Assembly: GCA_016194505.1 (NCBI GenBank)
Contig: JACQBK010000027.1
Span: 1 to 35,218, forward strand
From: Ignavibacteriales bacterium
GTDB lineage: Bacteria; Bacteroidota; Ignavibacteria; UBA10030
DNA: 35,218 bases
Reading direction: 5' to 3'
The notes below the pieces were generated by a model. That model ran no database searches, had not been told where the DNA came from, and saw only the letters and a program-made list of their open reading frames with translations. Shown here piece by piece: positions 2 through 28,220 of the stretch. The translations under genes were made by a program, and so were the position numbers. Numbering within the stretch: the stretch's first letter is position 1; the number at the start of each line of letters is the position of its first letter.

Positions 2-799
2 GCGAATTTGTTTATCCTTACCGCCATGATTCACATGTTCAGCGTGTATTTTGAAAAAGCATATCGCAAGCCTCGTGAAATCACATGGGTTACGGGTATG
101 CTCATGTTTTTCCTCGCTCTTGGGTTCGGGTTTAGCGGCTATCTTCTTCCGTGGAACGAGCTTGCCTTCTTTGCCACGAAAGTCGGAACGGATATTGCCG
201 GGGTTGTGCCCGTTATCGGCAAGCCGTTGATGATTTTTTTGCGCGGCGGAGAAGAGGTTACGGGAGCAACGCTTTCACGGTTCTTTGGTTTTCACATCGC
301 TGTGTTGCCGGGAATTTTTACCGTGCTTCTGGGCATTCATTTGATTCTTGTCCAGCGCCAAGGAATGAGCGAGCCTCATGAGTTTGAATCCACGCCAGAG
401 TCGGAGCAAAAAACAATGCCGTTCTTTCCGAATTTTCTCCTGCGTGATCTGCTCCTGTGGCTTCTCGTTCTCAACCTTCTTGCCATCTTAGCGGTGTTCT
501 TCCCATGGGAGCTCGGAAAGAAAGCGGATCTCTTCGGTTCGGCCCCCGCCGGTATAAAACCAGAATGGTATTTTCTCTACATGTTTCAAACGCTCAAATA
601 TCTTCCGGCGAAACTCTTGTTCATTGATGGCGAGGTGTTCGGCATATTGATGTTTGGCATTGCAGGGCTTTTATGGACGATAGTTCCTTTCTGGGATAAG
701 AAGAGCGCGCGTGGGGAGAAAAACAGATTTGTCAATTACCTTGGTCTATTTGCTATCATTTATATTATGGTTTTTACAATCATAGGGTGGTTTGCATGA
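2..799 (+). CDS. Cytochrome b (bc-type quinol oxidoreductase, b6/subunit IV-like), 5'-truncated by the window edge
   Basis: Frame stays open to the window start; multiple TM segments; GYLLPW and [13 protein letters not shown] (Qo-site PEWY) motifs; stop at 797-799. Confidence 0.9.
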
Positions 800-2280
800 A
801 GAAGCGCCTTTCCATAGTGATCGTTTTCCTCTTTTCATTGAGTTACGCTTTTGCAAGTGGTGATCCCCAAAAGGACCAATGCTTTACTTGCCATCAAACC
901 ATAGGGGATAAACCGTCCGAATTGTTCAAACGTGACGTCCATTTCCAAAAAGGCATTTCATGCGCAGCGTGCCATGGTGGCGATTCGAAAGCTGAAGACA
1001 TGGAAAAAGGAATGGATAAAGCGGCAGGATTTAAAGGAGTGCCCAAGGGAGACGCTATTTCAGAAGCGTGCGCCAGTTGCCATTCCAACCAAGAGAAAAT
1101 GAAGCAGTTTCACTCATCGTTGCCGACGAATCAATGGGAGTTCCTTAAGACAAGCGCACACGGAAAGCTTTCACTCACCGGCAAAGAGCATATTGCGCAA
1201 TGTACAACCTGTCATAACGCGCATGGGATTGTTCATGTAAAGGACCCTGCTTCCCCTGTCTTTCCGTTAAATGCGGTTAAGACATGCACCAAATGCCACG
1301 CAGATGCTTCATTCATGCGATCGTATAATCCTTCAATGTCGATTGACCAACTCGATAAATATCGAACGAGCGTCCATGGTCAAAGGAATGCGAAAGGTGA
1401 TAGCAAAACAGCCGAATGCGCAAGCTGCCATGGTAGCCACGATATTCGTCCTGCCAAAGACGTTAAATCGAAAGTGTATGCGACAAACATTCCTTCAACG
1501 TGCGGGACGTGTCATAGCAATGCAGCGTACATGAAGGAATATAAAATTCCGACGGACCAATTTGAGAAATTTTCAAAAAGCGTCCATGGCAAGGCGTTGT
1601 TACAGAAGCATGACCTCGCCGCGCCGGCGTGCAACAGTTGCCACGGTAACCATGGAGCCACGCCTCCGGGAATTACGTCGGTTTCGAAAGTGTGCGGAAC
1701 GTGTCATGCGCTCAACGCCGATTTGTTTTCCTCCAGCCCGCATAAAAAGGCGTTTGACGAGAGAAAACTTCCTGAATGTGAAACCTGTCATGGGAATCAC
1801 GAAATCATCGCGGCAACGGAAAAACTGCTTGGTGTCAGCAAGGATGCCGTCTGCAGTCGTTGTCACAGCGAGTCTCAAAATCCGAAGGGATATGTTGTTG
1901 CCAAGTCTATGAGACAGCTGATAGATAGTTTAGAAGTTACTAATGAAAAGGCAGCCAAGCTGGTGGAAGAGGCTGAACAAAAAGGAATGGAAGTAGCTGA
2001 TGTAAAATTCAAGCTCCGCGACGCGCATCAAGCGAGGTTGCAATCCCGGACAATGGTGCATTCATTCGATCAGGATAAATTCAGCGAAGTGGTCGGCAAG
2101 GGGTTGGGAGTAACGTCCTTCGTTGATCAAGAAGCAAAAGCCGCTTTGGATGAATATATCTTTCGGAGGGTTGGGTTGGGGGTTTCAACGCTCATTATTA
2201 CTATTCTGGCACTATCTTTGTATCTGTATATTAAACGCATAGAGCGAAACCAGCAAAAGAGAGAAAAAAACTCTCTTTAA
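796..2280 (+). CDS. Membrane-anchored multihaem cytochrome c (11 CxxCH)
   Basis: ATG at 796 overlaps the cytochrome b stop (ATGA); signal peptide [20 protein letters not shown]; 11 CxxCH motifs; C-terminal [23 protein letters not shown]. Confidence 0.92.
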
Positions 2281-2308
2281 AAATGAACAACTCATTAGGA
2301 GAAATACT

Positions 2309-2845
2309 ATGAAAATAAACAGCCTCGCTGTAGTTTTATTGATAGGGATCGTGGTAGCGTCATTTTCCGCCTCAGCGCAAAATAAATACATCGGCGTGAA
2401 AATGTGCTCCATGTGCCATAAGTCAGAAAAACAAGGAAAGCAGTTCGACATTTGGCAAAAAAGCAAACACGCCGGAGCCTACAAAACCCTTACGACTGCA
2501 AAAGCGAATGAGATCGCGAAATCAAAAGGGATTTCGAAGCCGGCAGCCGAAGCGTCAGAATGCTTAGAATGCCATGCTAAAGCTCGTGATGTCAAAGAAG
2601 CAAGCTATGATGTGAAAGATGGCGTACAATGTGAAACGTGCCATGGCGCAGGGTCTGCTTACAAAACCCTGTCCGTTATGAAGGACAAAGCAAAAGCTGT
2701 TGCGGCAGGCATGACAGATTTCAAAGATACAGCTACAATAGAGAAATTCTGCAAAACCTGTCATAATGAGAGAAGCCCGAACTTTAAGGAATTTAAGTTT
2801 GAGGAAATGTGGGGCAAGATTAAGCACTCCGTTCCGAAGGGTTAA
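2309..2845 (+). CDS. Periplasmic tetrahaem cytochrome c, cytochrome c-554-like
   Basis: Signal peptide; 4 CxxCH (CSMCH, CLECH, CETCH, CKTCH); AGGAG upstream of ATG. Confidence 0.85.
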   Translation: MKINSLAVVLLIGIVVASFSASAQNKYIGVKMCSMCHKSEKQGKQFDIWQKSKHAGAYKTLTTAKANEIAKSKGISKPAAEASECLECHAKARDVKEASYDVKDGVQCETCHGAGSAYKTLSVMKDKAKAVAAGMTDFKDTATIEKFCKTCHNERSPNFKEFKFEEMWGKIKHSVPKG

Positions 2846-2866: not shown

Positions 2867-2904
2867 AATCGGCATCGTACCGGTAAGTACGATGCCGATT
2901 TTTT
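2867..2904 (+). terminator. Rho-independent terminator after the tetrahaem cytochrome gene
   Basis: Perfect 14-bp inverted repeat AATCGGCATCGTAC / GTACGATGCCGATT, 6-nt loop, followed by T-run. Confidence 0.85.
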
Positions 2905-3134
2905 AAAAAACAACCAATTTGTGCTAAAAACGCCAGTTTTATATTAAAAGTAGAAGAATTGGCGAATATTTAGCTTGAATCATTCCGCTATAATTGTTAC
3001 AATTGCTGTAAAATCTTTCCAAGTTATGCGAATCCGGTGTGCAAAAGTTTCCAGCCTTTAGGAATAAAAAGGGGAATATGCCTAAAGAATTGTGTAAAAA
3101 ATCCATTTCTGACCGTAAAATCCCAAATTGGTTG

Positions 3135-3149
3135 TGGCACAACACTTGC
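3135..3149 (+). promoter_or_regulatory. Candidate sigma-54 (-24/-12) promoter upstream of the porin/cytochrome operon
   Basis: TGGCAC-N5-TTGC (tGGcacaacacttGC), GG-N10-GC spacing, 39 bp before the ATG at 3189. Confidence 0.6.
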
Positions 3150-3188
3150 GCCTATTGCCGCATATACTCACTTTTTCTCGATACGCCA

Positions 3189-4478
3189 ATGAGAACTCTC
3201 TATTCGATTATCGCCCTTCTTCTTCTTTTTTCAGCTACAACAGTAGCTCAAAGGTTCCAAGCGCGGTTGGTCTCTTCTGCTTATGCATGGGAGCGCCAAG
3301 ACAGCGTTGGAACATCTTCACAGCATCTTTTCGGCTATCAGACTGTCCAGCTCTCGCTTGCCGGGGAAAATCTTTCATGCTACACATACGTGCAAGGGTT
3401 CAATGATTTCACGGGACCCGTCAAAAACGATCCCTTGGTTCGGCTCTATAATTTTTATTTCAAATGGAGCAACATTGCCAATATCGGAGAAGTCACCCTT
3501 GGAAGAGAAGCGATTTTTGCGGGGGTTGGCACCGGAACAATTGACGGTGGAACTATCGGCGCGAAGTTTTTCGATTCCCGATTAAGAGTATTAGGATACT
3601 ACGGATTGCTTCCCGCTCCGCGTATGAAAGCCGAACTCATCGGTGACCGAAAAAATAATTTTATGACTGGCGGACAGATCGTCGGTTCTCCGGTGGAATT
3701 TGCACAGGTATCTCTCAGCTACACCAAAAAGCATATCAAACCGGACGCATATTTAGCGATTCGCCGCGATTCGCTTTTCAATCCTTATACGATCGAGATA
3801 AAACCGACAGCGGAGGCGGAAGAATATCTCAGCGGAGATGTCAATGTTGAATATGCTGAAAGAGTCTCTGGTTACGCCCGCTACGACTATGATATGCTCC
3901 TCGAGAAAATGTCGAGGCTACAACTTTTTACTCGTGTGAAGGTTCTGGAGCCGCTCAGCATTACGGGGGAGTATATTCAGCGCGAGCCGAGGCTTTTCTA
4001 TAATTCCATTTTCTCCGTCTTTACTTATAACACGCTTAAAGAATATGAAGCCGGTGCAGAATATTCCTTGCCGTGGAATGTGCAGGTATTTGGGAAATAT
4101 GGCTCCGTTTCCTATGGCGATGGCGAGACGTCACAACGTATCACTGTCGGAGCCAACAGCAAGCACGCCTCATTAAGCCTATCAAGAAATGTTGGCTACG
4201 CAGGGGAGTTAAGTGCCGCTTCTGTCACTGTGGGATATCCATTCTGCGATAATAAGCTCACTCCGACATTTATGTTGAGCTATGCTCGTTACAAGCTGAG
4301 TGAGAATGCATCATTGGATAATGCGTTGAGCATGGCGTTAGGCGCGGTGTATCGTCCGATCCAGGTGCTGTCATTCGATACGCAGCTTCAATGGGTGCAG
4401 AATAAAATTTATAGTAAAGATATGCGACTGTTTGTTCGAGCAAGCTATTTCTTCAGTCATCAACTTGGAATCTTCTGA
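3189..4478 (+). CDS. Outer-membrane beta-barrel protein / putative porin
   Basis: Signal peptide MRTLYSIIALLLLFSATTVAQ; alternating amphipathic strands throughout; C-terminal LFVRASYFFSHQLGIF ending in F; no CxxCH. Confidence 0.75.
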   Translation: MRTLYSIIALLLLFSATTVAQRFQARLVSSAYAWERQDSVGTSSQHLFGYQTVQLSLAGENLSCYTYVQGFNDFTGPVKNDPLVRLYNFYFKWSNIANIGEVTLGREAIFAGVGTGTIDGGTIGAKFFDSRLRVLGYYGLLPAPRMKAELIGDRKNNFMTGGQIVGSPVEFAQVSLSYTKKHIKPDAYLAIRRDSLFNPYTIEIKPTAEAEEYLSGDVNVEYAERVSGYARYDYDMLLEKMSRLQLFTRVKVLEPLSITGEYIQREPRLFYNSIFSVFTYNTLKEYEAGAEYSLPWNVQVFGKYGSVSYGDGETSQRITVGANSKHASLSLSRNVGYAGELSAASVTVGYPFCDNKLTPTFMLSYARYKLSENASLDNALSMALGAVYRPIQVLSFDTQLQWVQNKIYSKDMRLFVRASYFFSHQLGIF

Positions 4479-4485: not shown

Positions 4486-5718
4486 ATGCTAACCACACCA
4501 TCATCGTTTCGCGTAACAATGAAGCAAGTGTACGTTTTCTCAGCGCTTGCAACTGTTCTCATTCTTGGCTTTACAGTGTTGACGAGTTCCCACGAAGTAA
4601 TTGGGGACAAAGAAGTCAAACAAAAATCAATTAAGTTCTCCCACCCATTTCATGTCAAAGATGCGGGCGTTGCTTGTGCTGATTGCCACGATAAGGCTGC
4701 GACGAGTAAGCTCTCTTCGGATAACTTGATCAGCAAGCACGAAAACTGCCAAAGCTGCCACGAAGAACAACTCAAGGCAAATTGCACGTATTGCCATACA
4801 AGCAGTGATCAAACGACCTACAAGGCTTCTCAACTCAAGCGCGAGCTTGTGTTCTCGCATGAATCGCATATCAAAGACCAGAATATTCAATGCGAGACGT
4901 GCCACAAAGATATGAACCCTGCTGATGGCTCTATCAGCATGCCCACCATGGCAACGTGCAACACGTGCCATAATGATGTCAAAGCTACCAACGCTTGCGA
5001 GACTTGCCACACAGACCTTTCTGCACTTCGTCCAAAAGAACACAACCGAACGGATTTTGTTCGCGAGCATAAACGGCTTGCACGCTTATCCGATGCAACG
5101 TGCGCTTCGTGCCATACGCAGGAATCCTGCATCGATTGCCATAATGGCTCAGACCTGCAAAAAGTGGATGTTCCCGGAAAAGATTTGGTTTCTGCGCGCG
5201 CGCCCCGGTTGACTGCGAATGATAGGGGGCAAGGTCAGAGACTTACAAAAGTGCACGACCTTAATTTCCGCTTTACGCATGGAATTGCAGCCGCGGGTAA
5301 AACAGCGGATTGCCAGACGTGCCACAACCAGCAGACATTCTGCGGAACGTGCCATGCCGCGGGTGGCAATGTCAATCAAATCAAGTTTAAGCCCACAACG
5401 CATTCAGAAGCGGGTTTTGTCATGCTTGGTGTTGGGAGCGGCGGAGGAAAGCACGCCGGTCTTGCTCGCCGTAATATAGAAAGCTGTGCTTCGTGCCATG
5501 ATGCTCAGGGCGCCGATCCAACATGCACCACGTGCCACATGGACCCGGATGGCATCAAAGGTAACGATCCGAAGTCGCATGCAAGAGGATTTATGGTAGG
5601 CACAAAAGGCGAATGGCACAGCGATCCGGGTTCAACGTGTTTTACGTGCCATACGGACCCCAATGCCCGTGTTGATGGAATTAAGGGTCAAGGTTTCTGC
5701 GGCTATTGCCACAAGTAG
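4486..5718 (+). CDS. Multihaem cytochrome c (14 CxxCH), c7/c3-like FSHxxH...CxxCH repeats
   Basis: 14 CxxCH motifs; repeated FSHPFHVKDAGVACADCH / FSHESHIKDQNIQCETCH units; N-terminal hydrophobic segment; starts 7 nt after the porin stop (alternative ATG at 4519). Confidence 0.9.
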   Translation: MLTTPSSFRVTMKQVYVFSALATVLILGFTVLTSSHEVIGDKEVKQKSIKFSHPFHVKDAGVACADCHDKAATSKLSSDNLISKHENCQSCHEEQLKANCTYCHTSSDQTTYKASQLKRELVFSHESHIKDQNIQCETCHKDMNPADGSISMPTMATCNTCHNDVKATNACETCHTDLSALRPKEHNRTDFVREHKRLARLSDATCASCHTQESCIDCHNGSDLQKVDVPGKDLVSARAPRLTANDRGQGQRLTKVHDLNFRFTHGIAAAGKTADCQTCHNQQTFCGTCHAAGGNVNQIKFKPTTHSEAGFVMLGVGSGGGKHAGLARRNIESCASCHDAQGADPTCTTCHMDPDGIKGNDPKSHARGFMVGTKGEWHSDPGSTCFTCHTDPNARVDGIKGQGFCGYCHK

Positions 5719-5731
5719 ACGGAATACGAAT

Positions 5732-6613
5732 ATGAAGAATACTCTTATTGCTTATAGCATAACAGCGCTCACAGCGTTAGCTTTTCTTGCAGGATGCAGC
5801 GACCTCAAAGATACGCTCCCCAATCCGTCTTCCGGTGCCTTAAGTGTTCATCCGGATGGATGGGTAACGGCAAGCTCTGCAAACTTCCATGGAAAAGCTA
5901 TTAAGGATCAAGATTGGGATATGAGGGGATGCCAGGCTTGTCATGGAAAAAAGTACGAGGGGGGATACGTACAGGTGTCGTGCAGAACATGCCACAAAGA
6001 GCCGGCGGGACCGGAAAATTGCATTACGTGCCATGGTGGGGTGGCTAATGCAGCGCCGCCACGCGATCTGAACGACAGAACAGACAAAGCAGTTAAAACA
6101 GTTGGTGCCCATCAAATTCACCTACTGGGTAGCACGCTTGCCGGACCGATTCTTTGTAGTGAATGCCACAAGGTTCCGTCAACAGTATATGATCCGGGGC
6201 ATGTTGACTCGCAGGGTCCTGCAGAAGTTGCTTTCAATAATGATTTGACGAATACGAAAACCACCGGTGTTACTCCTGCACCAAGCTACAATGCAAGTAA
6301 TGCAACGTGTGGAAGCACATATTGCCACGGTGCCTTCAAGAATGGCAACACGACGTTTGCACCAATTTGGAACGACCCAAGTGGGACTCAGATGGCTTGT
6401 GGAACTTGCCACGGTGATGTGACGAAAACGACGTTGGCGGAAAAGGCATTGCCGAAAACTACAGCGCAAGGCGGAACTCACCCGGTGTATCCAAGTAATT
6501 TAACGTGCGCAACGTGTCACGGCGATGTTGTTGACGCGACCAATAAAATTATCAATCCCGCAAAGCATATCAACGGCAAATTGAATCTGCTTGGTGCAGA
6601 ACAGTCATTTTAG
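5732..6613 (+). CDS. Multihaem cytochrome c lipoprotein (6 CxxCH + 1 CX4CH)
   Basis: Lipobox ALAFLAGC; CxxCH motifs plus CGSTYCHG...CGTCHG, resembling the Geobacter CxxxxCH/CxxCH domain. Confidence 0.88.
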   Translation: MKNTLIAYSITALTALAFLAGCSDLKDTLPNPSSGALSVHPDGWVTASSANFHGKAIKDQDWDMRGCQACHGKKYEGGYVQVSCRTCHKEPAGPENCITCHGGVANAAPPRDLNDRTDKAVKTVGAHQIHLLGSTLAGPILCSECHKVPSTVYDPGHVDSQGPAEVAFNNDLTNTKTTGVTPAPSYNASNATCGSTYCHGAFKNGNTTFAPIWNDPSGTQMACGTCHGDVTKTTLAEKALPKTTAQGGTHPVYPSNLTCATCHGDVVDATNKIINPAKHINGKLNLLGAEQSF

Positions 6614-6652: not shown

Positions 6653-7864
6653 ATGAACAACCGAATCACGTTTTATATAATTGCCGTCATTGTTTTTATT
6701 ACCATAGTTACTATGGTTGGTTGCAAAGGGGCGGAGGGACCTCAAGGTCCTCCAGGCGAGACGACGCTGGTGAATCTTGAAGGCTTTGCCCCCGGCATAA
6801 AATGCGGCACGTGTCATATCCCGGATGCGGATACAACGTATTATCTTTTAGCGCGCTCATATCAATGGAGTCAATCCAAGCACGCGAACGGTGGAGACCT
6901 CGAGCGCAATAGCAGCGGTTGCGCAGGATGCCATACATCAGAAGGTTTTGTTCAGCGTATGAAGAATCTTGCGGGTGGTTCAATTTCACAGATCGTATCT
7001 GATCAAGCGCAACCAAGCCCGCCGGGCTGTTTTGCGTGTCACTCACCTCACTTACGGGCGAATTTTTCGTTACGCGATACTACCCCTGTTACCATTAAAT
7101 CGTTTGTTGCCGGTGTTCCGGACGCTGTATTTGATTATGGAAGGGGAAATCTCTGCGTAAAGTGCCATCAAACGCGGACGACTTCCACTTTGTCTCCGCT
7201 CCCGGACCCGACAAAAACGGCGGCTACTGATACAATCACCATCACATCGTCACGGTGGTATCCGCACTATGGAGTGCAAGGGCAAATGCTGATGGGAACA
7301 GGTGGTTTTCAATTTGCAGGTTATACCTATACGGGTAACTCCTATCACACGACCGCGACAGCTATCAAACAGAAGGGTTGTCCAATTTGCCACATGGCTC
7401 AAGGAGTATATCCGCCGAACTTAGGGACTGGAAAAGGTGGTGGCCATACCATGAACATTCGCTACACATGGGAAGGAACTCCCGGCTCCGTTGTTGCAGG
7501 ATGCAAAACTGCTGGTTGCCACCCCTCGACAATAACAACGCCTGATATTGTAGGGGCCTCGACCGGTGGGGTACCCGTACAAACACTCGTAGTTGCCTAT
7601 CTTGATACCCTCACTCAGTTGATGACTGATGCCTCGGGAGTTCTTACTGGGGGTAAGTATAAACGAAACTGGATTGTCGTAGGTGCCGATGGTGCTGTTA
7701 CGGTGAATGCAAGCGCTTCAAAGCCGTTGAAAATTGCACCCGCTTCTCGCGCTGGTGCATTGTGGAACTACCTTTTCGTTGAGCATGACTTGAGTGAGGG
7801 AGTCCACAACACAAAATTTGCAGTAGAACTTTTGAAATCATCCATCGTTGAGTTGCGCAAATAG
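6653..7864 (+). CDS. Multihaem cytochrome c lipoprotein (5 CxxCH + 1 CX4CH) with short collagen-like segment after the lipobox
   Basis: Lipobox-like IVTMVGC, then KGAEGPQGPPGE; CGTCH, CAGCH, CFACH, CVKCH, CPICH, CKTAGCH; strong RBS aagaggaga. Confidence 0.87.
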   Translation: MNNRITFYIIAVIVFITIVTMVGCKGAEGPQGPPGETTLVNLEGFAPGIKCGTCHIPDADTTYYLLARSYQWSQSKHANGGDLERNSSGCAGCHTSEGFVQRMKNLAGGSISQIVSDQAQPSPPGCFACHSPHLRANFSLRDTTPVTIKSFVAGVPDAVFDYGRGNLCVKCHQTRTTSTLSPLPDPTKTAATDTITITSSRWYPHYGVQGQMLMGTGGFQFAGYTYTGNSYHTTATAIKQKGCPICHMAQGVYPPNLGTGKGGGHTMNIRYTWEGTPGSVVAGCKTAGCHPSTITTPDIVGASTGGVPVQTLVVAYLDTLTQLMTDASGVLTGGKYKRNWIVVGADGAVTVNASASKPLKIAPASRAGALWNYLFVEHDLSEGVHNTKFAVELLKSSIVELRK

Positions 7865-8077: not shown

Positions 8078-10288
8078 ATGATTGCGGGAGTGTTAGCAGT
8101 TTCCGCATTACTGTTGCTCTATATCCTTCGCCATCAATTTGAGTATGCGTACGTGTACGGGTATAGCTCACGGGCGTTGCCCCTACATTTGCTCCTAACG
8201 ACATTTTGGGCTGGTCAGGAAGGAAGTTTCCTGCTGTGGGCATTGTGGGGAGCGATTATGGGCATCTTGTTAATGTCGTACACGCGAAAAAAACATATCG
8301 AGCTTGAAACAATGACGGTCTATGCGGTGGTGCAGTCGTTTTTACTGCTCCTGTTAATTGTGAAATCTCCGTTCCAGTACGTTTGGGACGCGCATCCGGG
8401 TCAGTTTGCCGCGGGTGTCGCACCCGTTGATGGACGCGGACTCAATCCGCTTCTTCAAAACGTCTGGATGGTGGCGCATCCTCCGATTTTATTTATAGGT
8501 TTTGCGGCAATGGCTGTTCCGTTTGTATTTGCCATTGCGGCGCTCTGGCGGAAGAACTACACTGATTGGATTGCCAATGCATTTCCCTGGGTGCTCTTCA
8601 GCACCATCGCGCTTGGAGCCGGCATTATGCTTGGCGGCTATTGGGCATACGGCGTTCTCGGTTGGGGCGGATGGTGGGGATGGGATCCGGTGGAAAACTC
8701 CTCGTTAATTCCATGGATTATCGGCGTTGTCTTGATCCATACGATGCTTGTGCAGAAGAAGACGGGTAATCTCGTCCGCTCGAATTTTTTCCTCGGAGTT
8801 CTTTCATATATCTTGGTTGTTTACAGCACGTTCCTTACCCGCAGCGGGATACTGGGCGAGTCTTCCGTCCACTCATTTGTTGATCCCGGCGCTCTTGCGT
8901 ACACGCTTCTCGTCGTATGGATTGTCGGTGCAATTGTATTCGGCTTCGGCATGATTGTTAAGCGATGGAAGGAATTGAAGGGGTTAGCGCAACCCTCTCT
9001 GTTCTTTACGAGAGAATCATTTCTTGGCATCAGCTCTGCCGTTATGGGTGCGAGTGCGCTTATTATTTTATTCGGCACAAGTTGGCCTATTCTTTCGCAT
9101 TCTTCCGTTGAGCCTGCATTTTATGATAAGATGAATCTCCCCATTGCGATCATCCTTGCGCTGCTGCTTGGAGCAAGCTTATTGTTGAAGTGGAAAGAAG
9201 AATCGTTACGCGATCTTCTGAAGAATTCCCTCGTCTCTCTGAGCGTTTCAATTGTTGTGCTCGTGTTGCTAATAATGGCTGGGCTTACCAATATAACGTT
9301 GGGACTATTTGCTTTTGCATCGCTGTTCGCCCTTGTTGTCAATGCGATCAGGTTCTATCGCCTTGGGAAGGAAAATTTGCAATGGACGGGCGGAACGCTC
9401 GCTCACATCGGGTTAGCGTTGTTGTTTCTTGGCATCATTGGCTCCGGGCGTTATGGGCAAAAGGTGACAACCTCGCTTACGCTCAATGAGCCGAGAGAGC
9501 TATTAGGCTATAAGCTGACCTATACAGGCTCTCAACCTGCCGAAGACGGTAAATGGAAATTTAATGTGAGGGTGGAAAGAAACGGGTCGCAATTTTTGCT
9601 TGAGCCTGTCATGTTCCAAAACACCTATAACAATAGTGTGATGAGAAATCCGGATTACGCGAGTTTTCTCACAAGGGATTTTTACATCGAGCCGGTTTCC
9701 CTGGAAGAATCTCAATCGCAGGAGGTAAGCAGCGGTACCACGTTCCAGTTGAAGAAAGGTGAGCCGCAGACGATTGGCGATATGAAGGTAACGTTCCTGC
9801 AGTTCGATATGAACCATGATGGAATGGATAAAATGGCAAGCGGCGGCGGGTTCGGGATTGGCGCTGTATTGGAAGTGAAACGAGGAGATGCCGTTGAACG
9901 CGTTGTTCCCGTCACTATTTATAAGGAAGGTCAAAAGCCGAATATAAAAACCGCCCAAACAAAGGATGGTCAACTTGGTTTTCAGATGTTGAATATGAAT
10001 ATTGATGCTGAGAAAAAATCTTCGGCTATTGAATTAAATGTTACCGGATTGACGGGACAAGCGACACAAGCACCGCCCAAAACGGAAGTCTTAGTAATCG
10101 AAGCAAGCGTGAAGCCCTTCATAAGCTTGATATGGGTTGCAGCCATTTTGATGACGGGCGGCCTTTTTATTTCCTTAACGAATAACCACCATAAGCAAAA
10201 GAACGGACTGCATATTACGTCGCTCAAAAAACCTGTTACGGTTAGAACCCAGCAAGTAGAAGAGCAGGCAGAAGAACAAGCTGTTTAA
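8078..10288 (+). CDS. ccmF: Cytochrome c-type biogenesis protein CcmF
   Basis: Polytopic protein with WAGQEGSFLLWALW and WGGWWGWDPVENSSLIPWI (tryptophan-rich haem-handling motif); reading frame is open upstream to 7961. Confidence 0.9.
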   Translation: MIAGVLAVSALLLLYILRHQFEYAYVYGYSSRALPLHLLLTTFWAGQEGSFLLWALWGAIMGILLMSYTRKKHIELETMTVYAVVQSFLLLLLIVKSPFQYVWDAHPGQFAAGVAPVDGRGLNPLLQNVWMVAHPPILFIGFAAMAVPFVFAIAALWRKNYTDWIANAFPWVLFSTIALGAGIMLGGYWAYGVLGWGGWWGWDPVENSSLIPWIIGVVLIHTMLVQKKTGNLVRSNFFLGVLSYILVVYSTFLTRSGILGESSVHSFVDPGALAYTLLVVWIVGAIVFGFGMIVKRWKELKGLAQPSLFFTRESFLGISSAVMGASALIILFGTSWPILSHSSVEPAFYDKMNLPIAIILALLLGASLLLKWKEESLRDLLKNSLVSLSVSIVVLVLLIMAGLTNITLGLFAFASLFALVVNAIRFYRLGKENLQWTGGTLAHIGLALLFLGIIGSGRYGQKVTTSLTLNEPRELLGYKLTYTGSQPAEDGKWKFNVRVERNGSQFLLEPVMFQNTYNNSVMRNPDYASFLTRDFYIEPVSLEESQSQEVSSGTTFQLKKGEPQTIGDMKVTFLQFDMNHDGMDKMASGGGFGIGAVLEVKRGDAVERVVPVTIYKEGQKPNIKTAQTKDGQLGFQMLNMNIDAEKKSSAIELNVTGLTGQATQAPPKTEVLVIEASVKPFISLIWVAAILMTGGLFISLTNNHHKQKNGLHITSLKKPVTVRTQQVEEQAEEQAV

Positions 10289-10340: not shown

Positions 10341-10844
10341 ATGAAAGCGCCCAAAACAATTCTCGTCCCGACAGATCTCTCGGCGTATTCACTCTCGGCA
10401 TTGCAGTATGCAGTAGAAATTGCAAAGTTATTTGAGGCGAAGATCACTGTTCTCCATGTGTGTGAGAACAAGAGGCCGTCAACAAAAAAAAGCGGTGGTA
10501 TTCAAAAGAAAGATTCGCGAAGCAAGGAAGTGAAAAACATCCGCGAGCAGCTTTCCCGACTGTTGGTAAATTATAACGTTGTAGCACAAAGTTTACAAAT
10601 TTTCATTAAACACGGGTCGCCCGTACGCGAGATTATTCACACTTCCCGCGATCTTCCCGCCGATCTTATTGTTATGTCAACACACGGTAGGACAGGCTTG
10701 CACCATGTGCTGATGGGAAGCGTTGCGGAAAAGGTTGTGCGCTATTCTACATGCCCGGTCTTGACGATTAAGCCGGAAGAGTTTCGCGAGCTGATTGATA
10801 TTACGGAAGAGGATATAGCCGATTCTCTCCATACGGCGATTTGA
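10341..10844 (+). CDS. Universal stress protein (UspA family)
   Basis: ILVPTDLSAYSLSALQYAVEIAK start; MSTHGRTGLHHVLMGSVAEKVVRYSTCPVLTIKP nucleotide-binding motif. Confidence 0.93.
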   Translation: MKAPKTILVPTDLSAYSLSALQYAVEIAKLFEAKITVLHVCENKRPSTKKSGGIQKKDSRSKEVKNIREQLSRLLVNYNVVAQSLQIFIKHGSPVREIIHTSRDLPADLIVMSTHGRTGLHHVLMGSVAEKVVRYSTCPVLTIKPEEFRELIDITEEDIADSLHTAI

Positions 10845-10865: not shown

Positions 10866-10899
10866 AAAGACCGTCGCTTGTTAAGGACGGTCTTTTTTT
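10866..10899 (+). terminator. Rho-independent terminator after usp, overlapping the 3' end of the convergent response-regulator CDS
   Basis: AAAGACCGTC / GACGGTCTTT inverted repeat followed by T8. Confidence 0.8.
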
Positions 10900-11606
10900 T
10901 GGTTATCCGAGCTTTGTGGCGCAGGTTCTTCGGGAAGGGCGTAGAGTTTAAGGCCGCGTAGTTGCTCGTTGAAGATTTCTTCCTGTAACAACGGAAGTCT
11001 CTTGAGGACTTCGGACATGCGGGTTACGTTTTGCTCGACTTCTTTGAGAAACATCCGCATTTCTTCCGAAGATAATTCAGTTGAGGAAGCCATCCTTGCA
11101 GAGGCAAGCCGAACTATTGCCATTGGGTTATTCAATTCATGATGAACGGTTCGGATAATGGTGGTAATCGCATCTAACCGTTGTGTTGTGATCTCGCGTT
11201 GGACTGCTTCCCGCTGGTATTGTTTTTTCTCAAGTCCGGTAATAATCATTTTTTCAAGTATCAATGGATTTGCCAGCTCTTCTTTCGCGAGGAAATCATC
11301 CGCGCCGAGTTTAAAAATATCGTGGACTACCCTATAATCTTGGCTTGCGGAAATGCACACAACGACGGAGTTGTTATCTCTTAAGCGGAGGGTTTTAAGG
11401 AACTCTGCTCCGTTCATGCCGGGGAGATAATAGTCCAATAAAATAATATCGAAGGGTCCTGAAAGTTCAATCATTTTAATCGCATCTTCGGCTGAAGTTA
11501 CGGTGTTGATGCGATAGTTGTATTCCACCGACTTTTTCAGCGCATACCGGAACGACTGCGAGATGCTTGGTTCATCCTCTATTATCAGAACTGAACGAGT
11601 TGTCAT
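10881..11606 (-). CDS. Response regulator with C-terminal HisKA-like (DHp) region, no ATPase domain
   Basis: VLIIEDEPSISQS, DIILLDYYLPGMNGAEFL receiver motifs; VHHELNNPMAIVRLA H-box; ends at 241 aa without HATPase N/G boxes. Confidence 0.85.
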   Translation of the reverse strand: MTTRSVLIIEDEPSISQSFRYALKKSVEYNYRINTVTSAEDAIKMIELSGPFDIILLDYYLPGMNGAEFLKTLRLRDNNSVVVCISASQDYRVVHDIFKLGADDFLAKEELANPLILEKMIITGLEKKQYQREAVQREITTQRLDAITTIIRTVHHELNNPMAIVRLASARMASSTELSSEEMRMFLKEVEQNVTRMSEVLKRLPLLQEEIFNEQLRGLKLYALPEEPAPQSSDNQKKDRP

Positions 11607-11830
11607 GGAATACCTTTTTTCTCAATGATATTCTTAAGTAAGCTACCTTTTTTAAGAAACTCAATAGTTGGTTCCAAAAATTTTAGAAGCTCCATTTCCA
11701 GCCTTAAGAATACCCTTTCTAGCATTCTCAAATATGCGAAACCCCTGTTTTTTTCCTCGATAAAATGCACACAAAGCACCGACCCATACAACCTTCCAAC
11801 GGCACGGTTTTTGACCTCTTTATGTACCAC
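11603..11830 (-). CDS. Small hypothetical protein (75 aa, GTG start) upstream of the response regulator
   Basis: Stop overlaps the response-regulator ATG (ATGA, translational coupling); no recognised family. Confidence 0.4.
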   Translation of the reverse strand: MVHKEVKNRAVGRLYGSVLCVHFIEEKNRGFAYLRMLERVFLRLEMELLKFLEPTIEFLKKGSLLKNIIEKKGIP

Positions 11831-11861: not shown

Positions 11862-12104
11862 ATGATATTCCCGACATATCAAAACGGCAGAGCACTTAAA
11901 TATGTGTATAGCGTTGTAGGGAAATGTGATGGCTGCCAGCTTTGCGAATTTTTAGCTTTTAACAACTTTGGCAGGGTAGCTGGCACAAATCAGTATGAAG
12001 TGTACAAACAGCCCGAAGGATGGGAAGAATTAGAGCAATGCCAGGAAGCGCTTGAGCGTTGCCCGTTCCGGGGAATCAGCAGGGAAGAAGAAGTGGCCTG
12101 GTAG
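11862..12104 (+). CDS. Small ferredoxin-like 4Fe-4S protein
   Basis: 80 aa; CDGCQLCEFLAFNNF ... CQEALERCPFRGI. Confidence 0.75.
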   Translation: MIFPTYQNGRALKYVYSVVGKCDGCQLCEFLAFNNFGRVAGTNQYEVYKQPEGWEELEQCQEALERCPFRGISREEEVAW

Positions 12105-12123
12105 CACCAAGCGAGACAACGAT

Positions 12124-13266
12124 ATGAACATCGGTATTCTTAAAGAAGATGTTTCAGTGGAGCGCCGCGTAGCGCTTTCACCCTCGGGGGTCGAAGTATT
12201 AACCACTGCGGGACATCAAGTATTCGTCTTGCATCAAAGCGCTTCTCTAACGTTGATGACCGATGAGGAATATAGCGCTGCGGGAGCGGTGGTAAGCTAC
12301 AATCTCGAAGAAATTATTAAGCGTTCCGACGTTGTCTTAAAGATCTCCCCCCCTACTCAGGAAGAACTTGTGCTTCTCAACGAAGGACAGGTGTGGTTTT
12401 CTTTCCTACACCTTGCCACCTCTCAGCGCAAGATACTTGAAGCATTGCTTGAGAAGAAAGTTACTGCAGTGGGATATGAGCTTATTGAAAACGAAAGAAA
12501 TAATCTTGCCGTATTGCAAGTCATGAGTGAGATCGCAGGACAGCTTTCAATTCATATCGCAGCGCATTACTTGCAAGGGAAAAAAGGAGGGAGGGGTGTT
12601 TTATTGGGAAGCATTCCTCGCGTGCCTTCTGCCTCTGTCGTAATTGTTGGCGCTGGTGTCGTCGGGAAAACCGCCGCACGTTTGGCGCTTGATATGGGAG
12701 CCGAGGTAACGATTTTGGATAAAGAAGAATCCCGTCTGGATCAACTCCGCTACACCCTGCGCGGCAATCTTACAACCGCGATTGCCAATACTGTGAATCT
12801 TACCGAAGCAACCAGTCGTGCTGATGTTGTCATTGGCGCGGTGCTGATTAAAGGAGAAAAAGCTCCGCATATTATCACTGAAGAGATGGTAAAGAAAATG
12901 AAGGCGGGGTCTGTTATTGTGGATGTCTCGATAGACCAAGGTGGATGCGTTGAAACAAGCAGACCTACGACGTTGGATGATCCCGTGTTCATCCGGCATG
13001 GGGTTCTTCATTATTGTGTTCCGAACATTCCTGCCTCCGTTGCTCGCACAGCAACGATCGGGTTAACGTACGCTCTTTTGCCTTATGTTCTCGATGTCGC
13101 AAAATTAGGTCTTGATGAAGCACTCAAGCGTAATAAAGGGCTTGCGCGAGGTCTTTGCACCTTTAATGGTTGGTGCACAAATCCGGTGATTGCTAAGGCA
13201 TTTGCCTTTGAAACGCGGAGTGTGGAACAAATTTTATCGAATATGATGCAACCTGTAAGGAATTAG
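12124..13266 (+). CDS. ald: Alanine dehydrogenase
   Basis: MNIGILKEDVSVERRVALSPSGVEVL; Rossmann VVIVGAGVVGKTAARLALDMGAEVTILD; IVDVSIDQGGCVETSRPTT. Confidence 0.92.
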   Translation: MNIGILKEDVSVERRVALSPSGVEVLTTAGHQVFVLHQSASLTLMTDEEYSAAGAVVSYNLEEIIKRSDVVLKISPPTQEELVLLNEGQVWFSFLHLATSQRKILEALLEKKVTAVGYELIENERNNLAVLQVMSEIAGQLSIHIAAHYLQGKKGGRGVLLGSIPRVPSASVVIVGAGVVGKTAARLALDMGAEVTILDKEESRLDQLRYTLRGNLTTAIANTVNLTEATSRADVVIGAVLIKGEKAPHIITEEMVKKMKAGSVIVDVSIDQGGCVETSRPTTLDDPVFIRHGVLHYCVPNIPASVARTATIGLTYALLPYVLDVAKLGLDEALKRNKGLARGLCTFNGWCTNPVIAKAFAFETRSVEQILSNMMQPVRN

Positions 13267-16288: not shown

Positions 16289-17698
16289 TCATTGTGAGAG
16301 CGAAATTGCTGCACCGATAATTTCCGCTGTTTCGTGAGCGCTTTTCACGCAATCTCCAACCGAAATCCCTCCTTTGAAATTGCTGCAAAAGAACAACCCC
16401 GGATGTTCCATTTCAAACTGATTAAGAGCCTTTATCTTGTGGTGATACCCAAGTTCGTATTGGGGAATGGCTTGTTTCCAGCGCGTAACCTTCAAATATA
16501 CATGTTTTCCCTTAATTTGCATAATATTTTTTAAATCGGTGAGAACCACGTCACAAAGCGTTTCTTCGTCGAGAAGAGCCAAATCCGGCTGACGGGAACC
16601 GCCAATAAGTGCCGTAAAAGAAACCATCCCCTGCGGCGCTCTGCCTGAAAATAAGCTTGACGACCACAGGCATCCGAGGATTTTGCGTCTTTCCTTAGTG
16701 GGAATGAGGAATCCAAAACCATCAAGGGATTGGTCAATGGCTTTTTGTTCAAACCCCGCATAAACGGACGCAACGGGGGGGTAGTAAATTGAATCAAGCG
16801 TTGCCGCCGTGGTGGGTGAATATTGCCGAATCAACTCTGCCGCCGCGTATGCTGGAACTGAAAGTACGACAGTGTTTGCTATAACTTGTTCAGCGGCTCC
16901 GTTGCGGGAATATTCTATAAGAAATCGCTTGTCGCTCAACTGGTGACCAGACTGCGAGGTCGTTTGTAGAGAAATAACAGTTGCGTTTGCGATGACCTTG
17001 TCGCCAAGACGTGCCGCTATCGCTTGCGGGAGTACTTGCATGCCGCTTCGAAAAGAAAATGACTCCGCCCGATCTTTAGCCTTCTCCGCGCGCGCCTTAC
17101 GTACTTTTCCCCCTCTTATCATACCTTTGATGAGACCGCCGTATTTTTCTTCGAGTGCGTATAATTTTGGAAATGCCGCATGTACGCTGAGTGCTTCAGG
17201 CTTGCCGGCAAACACACCGGCGACAAATGGGTCAATGGCGTACTCAAGGAACTCCTTTCCCAAGCGGCGAGTAACAAACTCCGCGATGCTTTCCTCCCGC
17301 TCCGCTTTGCCGATGAACGGTTCTTTCAGTAACCGAAGTTTACCCGAAACTGAAAAAAGATTTGTTTTCAAAAAAGCGATTGGATTTAACGGGAGCGCTT
17401 GAAGTTTTCCATCGCGGAGAATATAGCGGTTCGCGCTCGCGGGATTCGCATACATGAATTCATCTTCCAGTGCACAATCAGAGACGAGTTCTTTGAAGAG
17501 AGGGGTTGTTTCGAGCGCGTTATTAGGTCCGGTTTCAACGAGAAACCCGTTCTCGCTGACTGATTTCATCGTTCCGCCGACTGCCGCATCCTTTTCCAAC
17601 ACGATGACGTCCACGTTGCGTTTTGTCAGCCAATGCGCAACGCAAAGCCCGGAAATTCCTCCTCCAATGATGACGACTTCACACTGCTTTGTATTCAT
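16289..17698 (-). CDS. hemY: Protoporphyrinogen oxidase (oxygen-dependent, HemY/HemG type)
   Basis: VVIIGGGISGLCVAHWLTKRNVDVIVLEKDAAVGGTMKSV; SVGDCVKSAHETAEII C-terminus; next to hemH. Confidence 0.92.
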   Translation of the reverse strand: MNTKQCEVVIIGGGISGLCVAHWLTKRNVDVIVLEKDAAVGGTMKSVSENGFLVETGPNNALETTPLFKELVSDCALEDEFMYANPASANRYILRDGKLQALPLNPIAFLKTNLFSVSGKLRLLKEPFIGKAEREESIAEFVTRRLGKEFLEYAIDPFVAGVFAGKPEALSVHAAFPKLYALEEKYGGLIKGMIRGGKVRKARAEKAKDRAESFSFRSGMQVLPQAIAARLGDKVIANATVISLQTTSQSGHQLSDKRFLIEYSRNGAAEQVIANTVVLSVPAYAAAELIRQYSPTTAATLDSIYYPPVASVYAGFEQKAIDQSLDGFGFLIPTKERRKILGCLWSSSLFSGRAPQGMVSFTALIGGSRQPDLALLDEETLCDVVLTDLKNIMQIKGKHVYLKVTRWKQAIPQYELGYHHKIKALNQFEMEHPGLFFCSNFKGGISVGDCVKSAHETAEIIGAAISLSQ

Positions 17699-17714
17699 AG
17701 GATAAAAACCGTTC

Positions 17715-18749
17715 TCAGTGAGTCAGCTTTAATTTAGCTCGGCATTGACACATGTGCGCATCACCGGTATTGCCATTGGATGCTTGTTTTAAAACTTCAT
17801 CTACTAATGCCTGAATGAACTTCGGGTGGTTGTTAAGAGCCGGCATCATCTCAAATCGTTCCACGCCAAGCTTTGCTGCTTCTTCACGCGTCTCGATATT
17901 GATTTCATGAAGAGTCTCTATATGGTCAGTGACAAATGCAATCGGGATGATGAGCATATTCTTCGCGCCCTTCGTTGCCAGCGAATGGATGGTATCATTC
18001 AGCGAAGGCGCAAGCCATTTGGAAGGACCTACTTTGCTCTGATAACAGAGAAGGTGAGGGTGCTGCCACTTGCCGCGTTCCATCACTAAGCGCACGGTTG
18101 CTTCGATGTGTCTCTGATAGGGGTCGCCTCGTTCGATAATATACAACGGAACTCCATGCGCGCTAAAGACGAGTTGAACGTCTTTCGGGGCGACTCCGGA
18201 GAATTTTGCCAATGCTTTGTTGATGTTATCAACGATGGCTTCAATATAGAGCGGATTATTATAAAACTGATGTACTAACTTTTGGGGTTTTATATCGAGC
18301 CCGGCGCGAGAGCATTGTCTCTGCCATTCATTGATGCTTGAGCCGGAAGTGGTTATAGAGCAGTGAGGATACAACGGTAACAGGATTACCTCATCAAAGT
18401 TGCCCATCTTTATTTGGTTTACGGCGACTTCCGTCAGCGGATGCCAATAGCGCATGGCGACGAAGACTTTTGCATCTATTGTACCATCAAGCGCCTGTTG
18501 AAGAGCGTTTGCTTGAGCGTTCGTTAGCTCTAAAATAGGGGATTTGCCCCCGATTTCCGCATAGTGATGTGCTGCCTTGCTCTTTCGTTTTGAGGAGATG
18601 TACTGTGCAAGCGGTTTGCGCGCGATGCGTGCAAACGGGAAATCAATAATATCCGGATCCATAAATAAATTAAACAGAAACGGTTCAACGGCTTCCAACG
18701 AATCCGGTCCGCCAAGCTGAAATAACACTACCGCAATTTTCTTGGACAA
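17715..18749 (-). CDS. hemH: Ferrochelatase
   Basis: VVLFQLGGPDSLEAVEPFLFNLFMDPDII; LVFSAHGVPLYIIERGDPYQ; PIAFVTDHIETLHEI. Confidence 0.95.
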   Translation of the reverse strand: MSKKIAVVLFQLGGPDSLEAVEPFLFNLFMDPDIIDFPFARIARKPLAQYISSKRKSKAAHHYAEIGGKSPILELTNAQANALQQALDGTIDAKVFVAMRYWHPLTEVAVNQIKMGNFDEVILLPLYPHCSITTSGSSINEWQRQCSRAGLDIKPQKLVHQFYNNPLYIEAIVDNINKALAKFSGVAPKDVQLVFSAHGVPLYIIERGDPYQRHIEATVRLVMERGKWQHPHLLCYQSKVGPSKWLAPSLNDTIHSLATKGAKNMLIIPIAFVTDHIETLHEINIETREEAAKLGVERFEMMPALNNHPKFIQALVDEVLKQASNGNTGDAHMCQCRAKLKLTH

Positions 18750-18800
18750 TGGCTAAGTTCCTTTTCCCTTTATTTGAGACATCTGAAAAACAGAAATAAT

Positions 18801-18895
18801 TGTCTTTGCGAGGAGCGTAGCGACGAAGCAATCCTCTAAGTCAAAAGGAAAACGAGGTTGCTTCTCCCGACTAAAGTCGGGATCGCAATGACGTG
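18801..18895. repeat. Intergenic palindromic repeat (TGTCTTTGCGAGGAGCGTAGCGACGAAGCAATC ... GATCGCAATGACG type)
   Basis: Imperfect terminal inverted repeat TGTCTTTGCGA / TCGCAATGACG with internal CCCGACTAAAGTCGGG hairpin. Confidence 0.75.
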
Positions 18896-18955
18896 TATTT
18901 TTAATTTTTCAGAAGTCACTATGTACTACTTAGGTACTTATTACTCGCTTCTCGC

Positions 18956-19855
18956 CTACACCCATTCTTTTGGTTGCCGCAAGAGGTCAATCAGCTGCGC
19001 TTCGCGAGAACCTTGCTTTGGCTGGATATTATAATCCCACCGAGCTAAAGGAGGGAGGGACATGAGAATTGACTCAACGCGCCCTTTTGTTTCAAGCCCG
19101 AAAAGCGTACCCCGGTCGTACACTAAATTAAATTCAGCATACCGTCCGCGGCGAAGAAGCTGCCAATATTGTTCATGTTCTCCCCATTGTTCGGATTTTC
19201 GCCGCTCAACGATTGGCACGTATGCATCCAAAAATGAGTTGCCACACGTTTGGACGAAAGCGAAAAGTCGCTCGAAGTCCCCTTTAAGGTAATCAAAAAA
19301 AATCCCGCCAATGCCCCGTGCTTCTTTCCGATGCTTGATGAAGAAATACTCATCGCACCATTTTTTAAATTTTGAATAGTATTGCTTATCGTGTTGGTCG
19401 CACGCTTGTTTCCAAACGGAGTGAAAATAGCGAGCATCATCCTCAAAAAGATACGAGGGTGTTAAATCTGCGCCGCCCCCAAACCATGCGTCGGAGTTTT
19501 CCAACTCAAGATACCGAAAATTTGCATGAACCGTCGGAATCATCGGGCTATCCGGATGAATGACCAACGAAATGCCCGTTGCAAAAAATTGTTGCGGCTC
19601 AACATTCAAACGCTGAGCGAGGAGTTCCGTCAGAGTTCCTGAAACGGCAGAAGTATTGACGCCCCCTTTTTCAAACACGGCTCCATTTTGTATAACGCGC
19701 GTTCTCCCGCCGCCACCTTCAGGGTGTTGCCAGGCATCTTCTGCAAAGCGCGCCTTGCCATCCAATGATTCGAGCTTGCCGCAAATTACATCCTGCAGCT
19801 GTTCGAAATAGAGCTGGGCGCGTTGCTTATGAGTTTGTATTGTTGCTGTTTGCAT
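18956..19855 (-). CDS. hemF: Coproporphyrinogen III oxidase, aerobic
   Basis: Strong HemF signature: HANFRYLELENSDAWFGGGADLTPSYLFEDDARYFHSVWK; start taken at MQTATIQTH. Confidence 0.95.
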   Translation of the reverse strand: MQTATIQTHKQRAQLYFEQLQDVICGKLESLDGKARFAEDAWQHPEGGGGRTRVIQNGAVFEKGGVNTSAVSGTLTELLAQRLNVEPQQFFATGISLVIHPDSPMIPTVHANFRYLELENSDAWFGGGADLTPSYLFEDDARYFHSVWKQACDQHDKQYYSKFKKWCDEYFFIKHRKEARGIGGIFFDYLKGDFERLFAFVQTCGNSFLDAYVPIVERRKSEQWGEHEQYWQLLRRGRYAEFNLVYDRGTLFGLETKGRVESILMSLPPLARWDYNIQPKQGSREAQLIDLLRQPKEWV

Positions 19856-19884
19856 TTTGGGGTCAAGGTCAGCGGGATATGATT

Positions 19885-19912
19885 GCAGGCGACGATTTTC
19901 ATCGTCGCCTGC
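19885..19912. repeat. Perfect 12-bp stem / 4-nt loop hairpin between the S9 peptidase gene and hemF
   Basis: GCAGGCGACGAT-TTTC-ATCGTCGCCTGC. Confidence 0.7.
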
Positions 19913-19923
19913 TTGTCGCATAC

Positions 19924-22233: not shown

Positions 22234-22380
22234 AAGAGCACCTTACTAATTAGTGAAAGAAGTTGTCAGCGAATCGAGGGTTTTCGCAGTTGTTAATGTA
22301 TGAATGGAATTGAATTAAAGCCATAAAAAAGGTACAAGCTTTTGAAGGTTCAGAAAAAAATCTCCCCCCCCTTTTTTAAG

Positions 22381-22430
22381 TCCCGAAGGGATCCCTTTGG
22401 GAGAGGAGTCCGTCCCGTTCTACGGGACGG
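22381..22430. repeat. Two adjacent hairpins downstream of hemE and upstream of the S9 peptidase gene
   Basis: TCCCGAAGGGATCCCTTTGGGA (near-palindrome) and CCGTCCCGT-TCT-ACGGGACGG. Confidence 0.7.
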
Positions 22431-22474
22431 GAGGGAGTCAGAAAAAGCTGATACCTCTGACAAGGGCAATCTAT

Positions 22475-23521
22475 CTAACCCTTATGGTATTTTCCGCTCT
22501 CTTCTTTTACTGCCTGAATAAGCGCTTTTGCATGTTCGACTGGTATATCGGGCAGAATGCCATGACCGAGATTGAAAATATGTCCTGAGCCTTTGCCGAA
22601 TTTCTCTAAAATGCGCTTTACACCTGCCCGGATTTTTTCCGGCGGCGCATATAATAGTGTCGGGTCGAGATTGCCTTGCAATGCTACATAACTTCCAACC
22701 ATCTCGCGGGCTTTGCCAATATCAGTAGTCCAATCCAATCCGACGACATCCGTGCCTGTATCTGCAATTGCTTCGAGCGAGTGCCCGCAATCTTTGCAGA
22801 AGACAATCACCGGAGCATTATTTTTCTTAAGAAGTTGAAGCACCTGTTGTATATAACGCAGAGAGAATTCTCGAAATTCCTCTTGCGGGAGAATGCCGCC
22901 CCATGTATCGAATATCTGAACCGCTTGAGCACCGGCTTCTATTTGAGCGCTAAGGTACGATGCAACTGCGCGGGCAAGTTTATCCAGCAACGCGTGAGCG
23001 TCTTTAGGGTTTGTATAAATCAGTTCCTTGATGTAACGAAAATTTCTCGAGCCTCTACCTTCAACCATATATGTAGCAAGCGTCCATGGCGAGCCGGAAA
23101 AGCCTATCAATGGAACGCGCCCGTTCAGTTGCTTGCGGGTGAGCCGTAGAGCATCCATAACAAAACGAAGCTCGCGGTTTGGATCGGGCATTGTAAGCCG
23201 GTCAATGTCTGCTCGTGAACGGAGCGGGGCAGGGAAGCGTGGACCACCCTTTCCCTCTTCGACGATAAGTTCCATTCCCATCGCTTCCGGAACGACAAGG
23301 ATATCGGAAAAAATAATGCACGCATCAACACCGACGATATCAACGGGCTGGATGGAAACTTCCGCGGCAAGTTCCGGAGTCTTGCACAGCGTAAGGAAAT
23401 CCGTTTTTTCCCTAATGGCGCGATACTCGGGCAAGTATCTACCCGCCTGACGCATCATCCAGACAGGAGTGCGTTCAACATCTTCTCGCTTGCAAGCTCG
23501 TAAGAAAAGATCGTTTGTCAA
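22475..23521 (-). CDS. hemE: Uroporphyrinogen decarboxylase
   Basis: TPVWMMRQAGRYLPEYRAIREKTDFLTLCKTPELAAEVSIQP signature; IFSDILVVPEAMG; FNLGHGILPDIPVEHA. Confidence 0.96.
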   Translation of the reverse strand: MTNDLFLRACKREDVERTPVWMMRQAGRYLPEYRAIREKTDFLTLCKTPELAAEVSIQPVDIVGVDACIIFSDILVVPEAMGMELIVEEGKGGPRFPAPLRSRADIDRLTMPDPNRELRFVMDALRLTRKQLNGRVPLIGFSGSPWTLATYMVEGRGSRNFRYIKELIYTNPKDAHALLDKLARAVASYLSAQIEAGAQAVQIFDTWGGILPQEEFREFSLRYIQQVLQLLKKNNAPVIVFCKDCGHSLEAIADTGTDVVGLDWTTDIGKAREMVGSYVALQGNLDPTLLYAPPEKIRAGVKRILEKFGKGSGHIFNLGHGILPDIPVEHAKALIQAVKEESGKYHKG

Positions 23522-23560
23522 TTGATGCCTTTACATAATTCGATTTGTGAAAAATTGCAT

Positions 23561-23584
23561 AGGGGCTTGATTCATCAAGCCCCT
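23561..23584. repeat. Perfect hairpin upstream of hemE
   Basis: AGGGGCTTGA-TTCA-TCAAGCCCCT. Confidence 0.65.
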
Positions 23585-23699
23585 ACTTTAAGGTTTTGAC
23601 CGCAAAATCATTCCTTTTTCTCCGCGTGCTCTGCCTGCCTGCCGCAGGCGGGCGAACTCTGCGGTGAATATTCAACCCCCCCGTTTTAAATCGTTATAA

Positions 23700-24473: not shown

Positions 24474-24486
24474 TGTGTATTGCGGT

Positions 24487-26722: not shown

Positions 26723-26740
26723 GTTATTATTGAAAGATTA

Positions 26741-26983
26741 TCACGCAAAGCCGCAAAGAAAAATTATCTATTAAATATAGTAGCGCTCTTTGTGTCTTAT
26801 ATATTTTTGACCTCACCCTGTCCCTTCTCCTGATTTATCGGGAGAAAGCTAGTGCCAAAGGCATCGAGACTGTGTAAAAAGTAAATCTTTGTAAAAATAA
26901 GTGGGACAATTCTCCACAAATCTAGTTGTCCGAGAGTTAAACTCTCGGACAGAAATTTCTTCGACAGTTTAACTGTCGAAGAA
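26741..26983. repeat. Cluster of intergenic palindromic/repeat elements between hemA and a YciI-like gene
   Basis: CACGCAAAGCCGCAAAG...CTCTTTGTGTC (26742-26798); TTCTCC...GGAGAA (about 26825-26846); perfect palindromes at 26927-26951 and 26957-26983. Confidence 0.7.
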
Positions 26984-27024
26984 CAATATGAACCGTTGGT
27001 CTTGTCACGATGTACGACAGTATG

Positions 27025-28083: not shown

Positions 28084-28220
28084 AACTGTGTTCCTTTCGA
28101 CATCGAAATAAGACTCTTTCTTAAAATTTAGACAATTGTCGTACCATAAACAAGTTGCTTCATTTTCGCCATTTTTTATCTCACTTTTGCAAAAATTAGC
28201 AGATCGGGAGGGAAGATTTC

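Follow-up and report, generated by a model that had tools for sequence, protein, structure and literature searches.

To my knowledge, it is largely unknown how bacteria outside the Proteobacteria take the decision to build extracellular electron-transfer machinery. NtrC-type enhancer-dependent promoters combine a response regulator and a PAS kinase with tandem palindromes that are spaced by three helical turns and lie ~80-110 bp ahead of the -24 box. In Geobacter sulfurreducens, the RpoN regulon links sigma-54 to the cytochromes of extracellular electron transfer, with the consensus TTGGCACGGTTTTTGCT (PMC2725144); expression of Geobacter electron-transfer genes changed in the RpoN+ strain although these genes had no detectable RpoN elements, a possibly indirect effect (PMC2725144). 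The Desulfovibrio sigma-54 activator DVU3142 has predicted sites before the multiheme cytochrome genes of the octaheme Ohc complex (PMC4641369). Porin-cytochrome conduits of the OmbB-like and MtrB-like kinds have already been reported in Ignavibacteria, in a paper whose text does not contain the word 'promoter' (PMC7399161). Neither Ignavibacteria nor cytochromes appear in the text of a cross-phylum sigma-54 survey (PMC12316311), and a literature search found no paper that joins Ignavibacteria with sigma-54.

Here I describe a candidate conduit locus in a stretch of 35,218 nucleotides (the window) from an Ignavibacteriales bacterium known as a metagenome-assembled genome (Table 1). An outer-membrane barrel is encoded together with cytochromes of 14, 6 and 5 CXXCH motifs, as in a porin-cytochrome conduit; the barrel itself has no Pfam match, and its top 50 Foldseek matches are generic outer-membrane barrels. 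An initial annotation had placed a near-perfect sigma-54 promoter element in front of this operon, to be served by a dedicated activator encoded outside the window, and had suggested looking in the genome for rpoN, for NtrC-family regulators and for the same motif before other cytochrome genes. Judged by its sequence context and conservation, the motif is very probably a real sigma-54 promoter that evolution has maintained, and not a chance match.

Table 1. Coordinates of the promoter, its operon, related features of the window and the candidate regulatory pair on contig C75
Feature	Position	Strand	Basis or remark
Preceding operon's end: cytochrome b, 11-CXXCH cytochrome, c554 (4 CXXCH)	2..2845	+	
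Terminator-like stem-loop and T-run after c554 gene	2869..2905	+	direct reading; shortened version found by separate search
Distal enhancer palindrome TTCCAAGTTATGCGAA	3017..3032	.	starts 118 bp before box; 32 bp from proximal copy
Proximal enhancer palindrome TTCCAGCCTTTAGGAA	3049..3064	.	starts 86 bp before box
Sigma-54 -24/-12 box TGGCAC-AACAC-TTGC, porin-cytochrome operon	3135..3149	+	exact match; homologues
Predicted transcription start	3160..3161	+	inferred from sigma-54 geometry
Outer-membrane beta-barrel (porin) with signal helix, operon's first gene	3189..4478	+	AlphaFold2 model; homologues
Multiheme cytochrome, 14 CXXCH	4486..5718	+	
Multiheme cytochrome, 6 CXXCH	5663..6613	+	
Multiheme cytochrome, 5 CXXCH	6653..7864	+	
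CcmF-type cytochrome c assembly protein	8078..10288	+	own enhancer and box promoter at 11 sites in relatives
Universal stress protein (Usp)	10341..10844	+	homologues behind same promoter type in relatives
Second sigma-54-like box CGGCAC-GGTTT-TTGA	11800..11814	+	palindromes 11695-11710, 11725-11740
Ferredoxin (11862-12104); alanine dehydrogenase/transhydrogenase-type gene (12124-13266)	11862..13266	+	behind 11800 box
Tentative third box TGGTAC-GACAA-TTGT	28132..28146	-	palindrome 28218-28233; before CcsA-like gene and hemA-C-D-E-F-H-G
NtrC-type activator, 455 aa	C75:8452-9816		receiver, sigma-54 AAA+, HTH_8 (Pfam)
PAS histidine kinase, partner of C75 activator	C75:9820-11226		

The box and its conservation before porin genes

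TGGCAC-N5-TTGC is matched exactly at a single place in the window, TGGCACAACACTTGC at 3135-3149 on the + strand, against an expectation of ~0.06 from base composition; its GG-N10-GC spacing places GG at -24 and GC at -12. The element described in the initial annotation is confirmed, and the gap of 39 bases to the porin ATG (3189) is as first given. Its position after the terminator of the previous operon was also read correctly, since a stem-loop and T-run lie at ~2869-2905, past the end of the c554 gene (2845). A box alone is only suggestive, and proof must therefore rest on conservation. With two mismatches allowed, the window holds 41 box-like matches against 35 expected, which is uninformative; the exact box occurs eight times in the whole genome against five for the reversed control, a slight excess, and its count is not clearly raised in 61 relatives either. 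Because these counts are at or near chance, I do not use them as the main argument. The 9-base core TGGCAC-N5-TTG is in clear excess in the whole genome (30 against 10 for the reversed control).

Porin homologues were found in 47 of the 61 relatives; the named relatives are Ignavibacteria/Ignavibacteriales. Upstream regions of porin homologues were oriented and scored, giving 67 non-redundant regions, and the expectation was taken from permuted motifs on the same 67 sequences. Matches to the box at 9/10 or better occur in nine of these regions against 0.02 expected, all of them at -60 to -44 from the ATG; examples are TGGCACACGGATTGC (L032), TGGCACAGCGGTTGC (L040), TGGCACAAGGCTTGT (L039) and TGGCACAATCCTTGT (L045). 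Where the porin lies within ~30 bases of c554, which is the case in the majority of distant relatives, no box was found upstream of it, suggesting that the promoter goes with transcriptional independence. The box is also missing despite gaps of at least 100 bp before the ATG in L056, L058, L060, L063 and the L050-L053 group; thus, sigma-54 control of porin genes is not universal. L050-L053 and L065 carry a gene of ~130-150 codons (ending ...GPWFMASxxR) between c554 and porin, with no box before the porin, and control of the porin may be wired differently in this group.

Enhancer palindromes and the other genes behind them

Motif discovery recovered a 16-bp palindrome, TTCCcA-N4-TgGGAA (TTCCcAanntTgGGAA), in all 13 box-bearing porin upstream regions, the window's included, with a log-likelihood of 63 compared with 21-30 in shuffles. 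It typically lies 65-115 bp before the box, often as two copies ~30 bp apart. Of all 16-mers in the window, its two copies (3017 and 3049) score highest and second highest with a matrix built from non-porin sites only, and this porin-free matrix separates box-bearing from box-less porin upstream regions (medians 11.8 and -4.6, p=2e-8), a p value that is indicative because relatives are not independent samples. Furthermore, the pattern palindrome-N50-80-box occurs at 30 sites in 100 genomes whereas the reversed pattern occurs at none. A palindrome scoring at least 7 accompanies seven of the 30 box cores in the genome, and all seven are non-coding if the porin starts at 3189. Exact boxes on C64, C117 and C120 lack the palindrome and were set aside; those on C64 and C120 lie inside genes. 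Together, positional conservation and the conserved enhancer sites support the sigma-54-type promoter that the initial annotation had proposed.

The operon that precedes the porin appears to have a promoter of this type as well. Positions 1-141 of the window are identical to C127 8871-9011, the split falling inside the cytochrome b gene, and this exact 141-bp overlap makes C127 the window's upstream neighbour. A box lies at C127:1367, and behind it starts an operon of multiheme cytochromes, a Rieske protein and cytochrome b that ends at the c554 terminator. The palindrome at this box is weak (score 7.1); homologous promoters precede the operon's first gene in relatives. Within the window, the second promoter, at 11800, is retained in L049-L052 and L090, where it again stands ahead of the ferredoxin and transhydrogenase-type genes, and the tentative third box was not confirmed in the two distant relatives available for comparison. 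Two neighbouring loci are recorded for completeness. On the minus strand at 16289-28074, adjoining the electron-transfer cluster, lie a CcsA-like gene, hemA, hemC, hemD, hemE, hemF, hemH and an amine-oxidase-type (hemG-like) gene; at 10881-11606, also on the minus strand and between the two predicted sigma-54 operons, a response-regulator receiver is fused to a domain of HisKA type, and no ATPase domain was recognised.

Across the genomes, the palindrome and box precede redox genes: the porin, the cytochrome b/multiheme operons, CcmF, the ferredoxin-transhydrogenase pair, Usp and a large multiheme cytochrome, and also genes whose sequences were recognised as HemN, PFOR and a hydrogenase protease. 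The shared enhancer motif suggests that the conduit belongs to a wider regulon. A cytochrome encoded behind the C75 regulator (L141 5051-7153) has 701 residues, nine CXXCH motifs, MtrC/MtrF-like domains and a T9SS sorting domain, and its homologues carry the palindrome and box in L128, L192 and L193; it is a candidate surface terminal reductase. Elsewhere, C24 encodes another kinase/NtrC-type pair (L142 4536-8260), with a palindrome and box shortly after it that precede 4Fe-4S ferredoxin and 2-oxoacid:ferredoxin oxidoreductase genes.

The candidate activator and competing explanations

NtrC-family regulators, which the initial annotation had proposed to look for, are plentiful: the genome (G000) encodes at least 11 (11-12) strong sigma-54 activator domains as well as weaker ones. 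The pair on C75, whose activator was flagged by script for its GAFTGA/GSFTGA loop, has one palindrome and box upstream of the kinase and a second immediately downstream of the regulator. The latter is found directly behind the regulator orthologue at 27 of 30 loci; the former recurs before the kinase gene in relatives G005, G010, G012 and G016, and with a weaker palindrome in G002, and was not seen in the other readable relatives. The activator has an orthologue in nearly all relatives, and regulator and porin share a contig in 18 of the 42 genomes that have both, within 35 kb in 13 of these. In the named relatives, an activator next to the porin was within reach at three loci only, none of them informative. 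By gene neighbourhood and conservation, the C75 kinase/NtrC-type pair is thus the best candidate for the activator. The earlier expectation of an activator encoded outside the window therefore has a strong candidate, but that activator would not be dedicated to the conduit, as the same enhancer motif stands before the cytochrome b operon, before ferredoxin-transhydrogenase and, in relatives, before CcmF and others.

Very probably, then, 3135-3149 is the sigma-54 promoter of the porin-multiheme-cytochrome operon, with its palindromes bound by an NtrC-type regulator, the C75 protein being the best candidate, that would act regulon-wide. RNA polymerase-sigma-54 would wait in closed form at the box, while the response regulator would bind both palindromes, ~80 and ~110 bp upstream; once phosphorylated, on whatever signal is sensed, it would loop to the polymerase and open the promoter for transcription. 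The same activator would serve the C127 Rieske/cytochrome b/multiheme operon, the ferredoxin-transhydrogenase operon, the T9SS-exported multiheme cytochrome and its own kinase gene. For the relatives, CcmF, Usp, HemN, PFOR and others join the predicted regulon.

A sigma-54 promoter presupposes its sigma factor, and on this point the initial annotation, which would have given up its proposal for a genome without rpoN, formally receives a negative answer: RpoN was not found in this assembly, which is 90.6% complete. Together with the exact box's slight excess over control, this could mean that the motif arose by chance, or that it is a remnant from before this lineage lost rpoN. The genes that neighbour rpoN in relatives are hslV, hslU and a DUF3467-like gene, and hslU and the DUF3467-like gene are likewise missing here. 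Since rpoN is present in 57 of 61 relatives (51 of the 53 good ones) and the strong activator genes remain, an assembly gap is the better and more economical reading of its absence; with box and both palindromes intact and box cores at three times control, a chance match or relic is very unlikely. I give slightly less credence still to a housekeeping-type promoter, TTGAAT-17-TACAAT at 2975-3003, with translation from an ATG at 3078. No stop interrupts the porin frame as far back as 3039, so that a longer ORF (3039-4478) is possible, and the in-frame ATG at 3078, preceded by AGGGG as a fair ribosome site, would place the motif inside it; the hexamers match at 9 of 12 positions, with TG before the second. 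Such matches are at chance level, however (two found, 1.4 expected), and the conservation of box and palindromes speaks against this reading. Most porin homologues carry a stop codon shortly before the aligned ATG, and the AlphaFold2 model from 3189 (pLDDT 82.5) opens with a helix (residues 2-15), a putative signal peptide, and continues as a beta-barrel of 20+ strands. As the extension is missing from homologues, and the signal helix and barrel start from 3189, I rejected the N-terminal extension to 3078; 3189 is the likely start, which leaves the 3135-3149 motif non-coding.

Which activator drives the promoter is a separate question. A different NtrC-type protein might do so, the C75 pair being merely a neighbour and itself a target; the number of strong activators in the genome leaves room for this, and on C24 another kinase/activator pair stands just before the palindrome and box at C24:20241. 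I nevertheless regard it as unlikely, given how regularly the palindrome and box accompany the C75 orthologues, behind the regulator and, in several relatives, before the kinase. The recognition helices of the other activators differ, whereas the helix of C75 recurs in a stand-alone HTH protein behind the same promoter type.

This protein, of 86 residues and Fis-type (HTH_8), is encoded directly behind the C75 activator, under a palindrome and sigma-54 promoter, and has a counterpart behind the activator at 15 of 30 orthologous loci (L160-L189), counting HTH hits other than the one in the activator itself. Its helix, GISLSSLYRK, matches GVSLSSLYRK of the activator; among the other activator C-termini compared within this genome, none matches. 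The small protein could occupy these palindromes and yet be unable to open the promoter, in which case the activator would be switching on a rival to itself. As such a built-in brake, which I put forward as a tentative reading on the doubtful side of even, it would limit the amount of cytochrome that the cell makes; equally, the protein may be a co-activator or have an unrelated role.

Relation to known systems

The promoter mechanism is of a known kind, and the regulon, enhancer motif and activator are apparently undescribed within the searchable literature. What emerges is an apparently undescribed Ignavibacteria circuit that probably turns on cytochromes, ferredoxin and respiratory parts for pushing electrons out of the cell. 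It can be phrased as a clade-wide hypothesis: a single kinase/activator pair, together with a single enhancer sequence and sigma-54, would govern the cytochrome complex of the inner membrane, the conduit of the outer membrane, the T9SS-exported surface cytochrome, and the cytochrome-assembly and ferredoxin genes. The motif can be used to find further conduit genes in metagenomes, and the predicted binding sites lend themselves to in vitro tests that require no culture of the organism.

In architecture, the porin promoter is like NtrC-type promoters, but its palindrome, TTCCcA-N4-TgGGAA, differs from NtrC sites and its targets are respiratory rather than nitrogen genes. The Geobacter consensus, TTGGCACGGTTTTTGCT, is near-identical to the box described here (PMC2725144); unlike in Geobacter, the operons here carry both box and enhancer sites, belong to another phylum and come with a candidate activator. 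Finally, DVU3142 is predicted to act on the ohc operons and is divergent to them (PMC4641369), whereas the candidate here is a kinase-coupled regulator with a broad predicted redox regulon.
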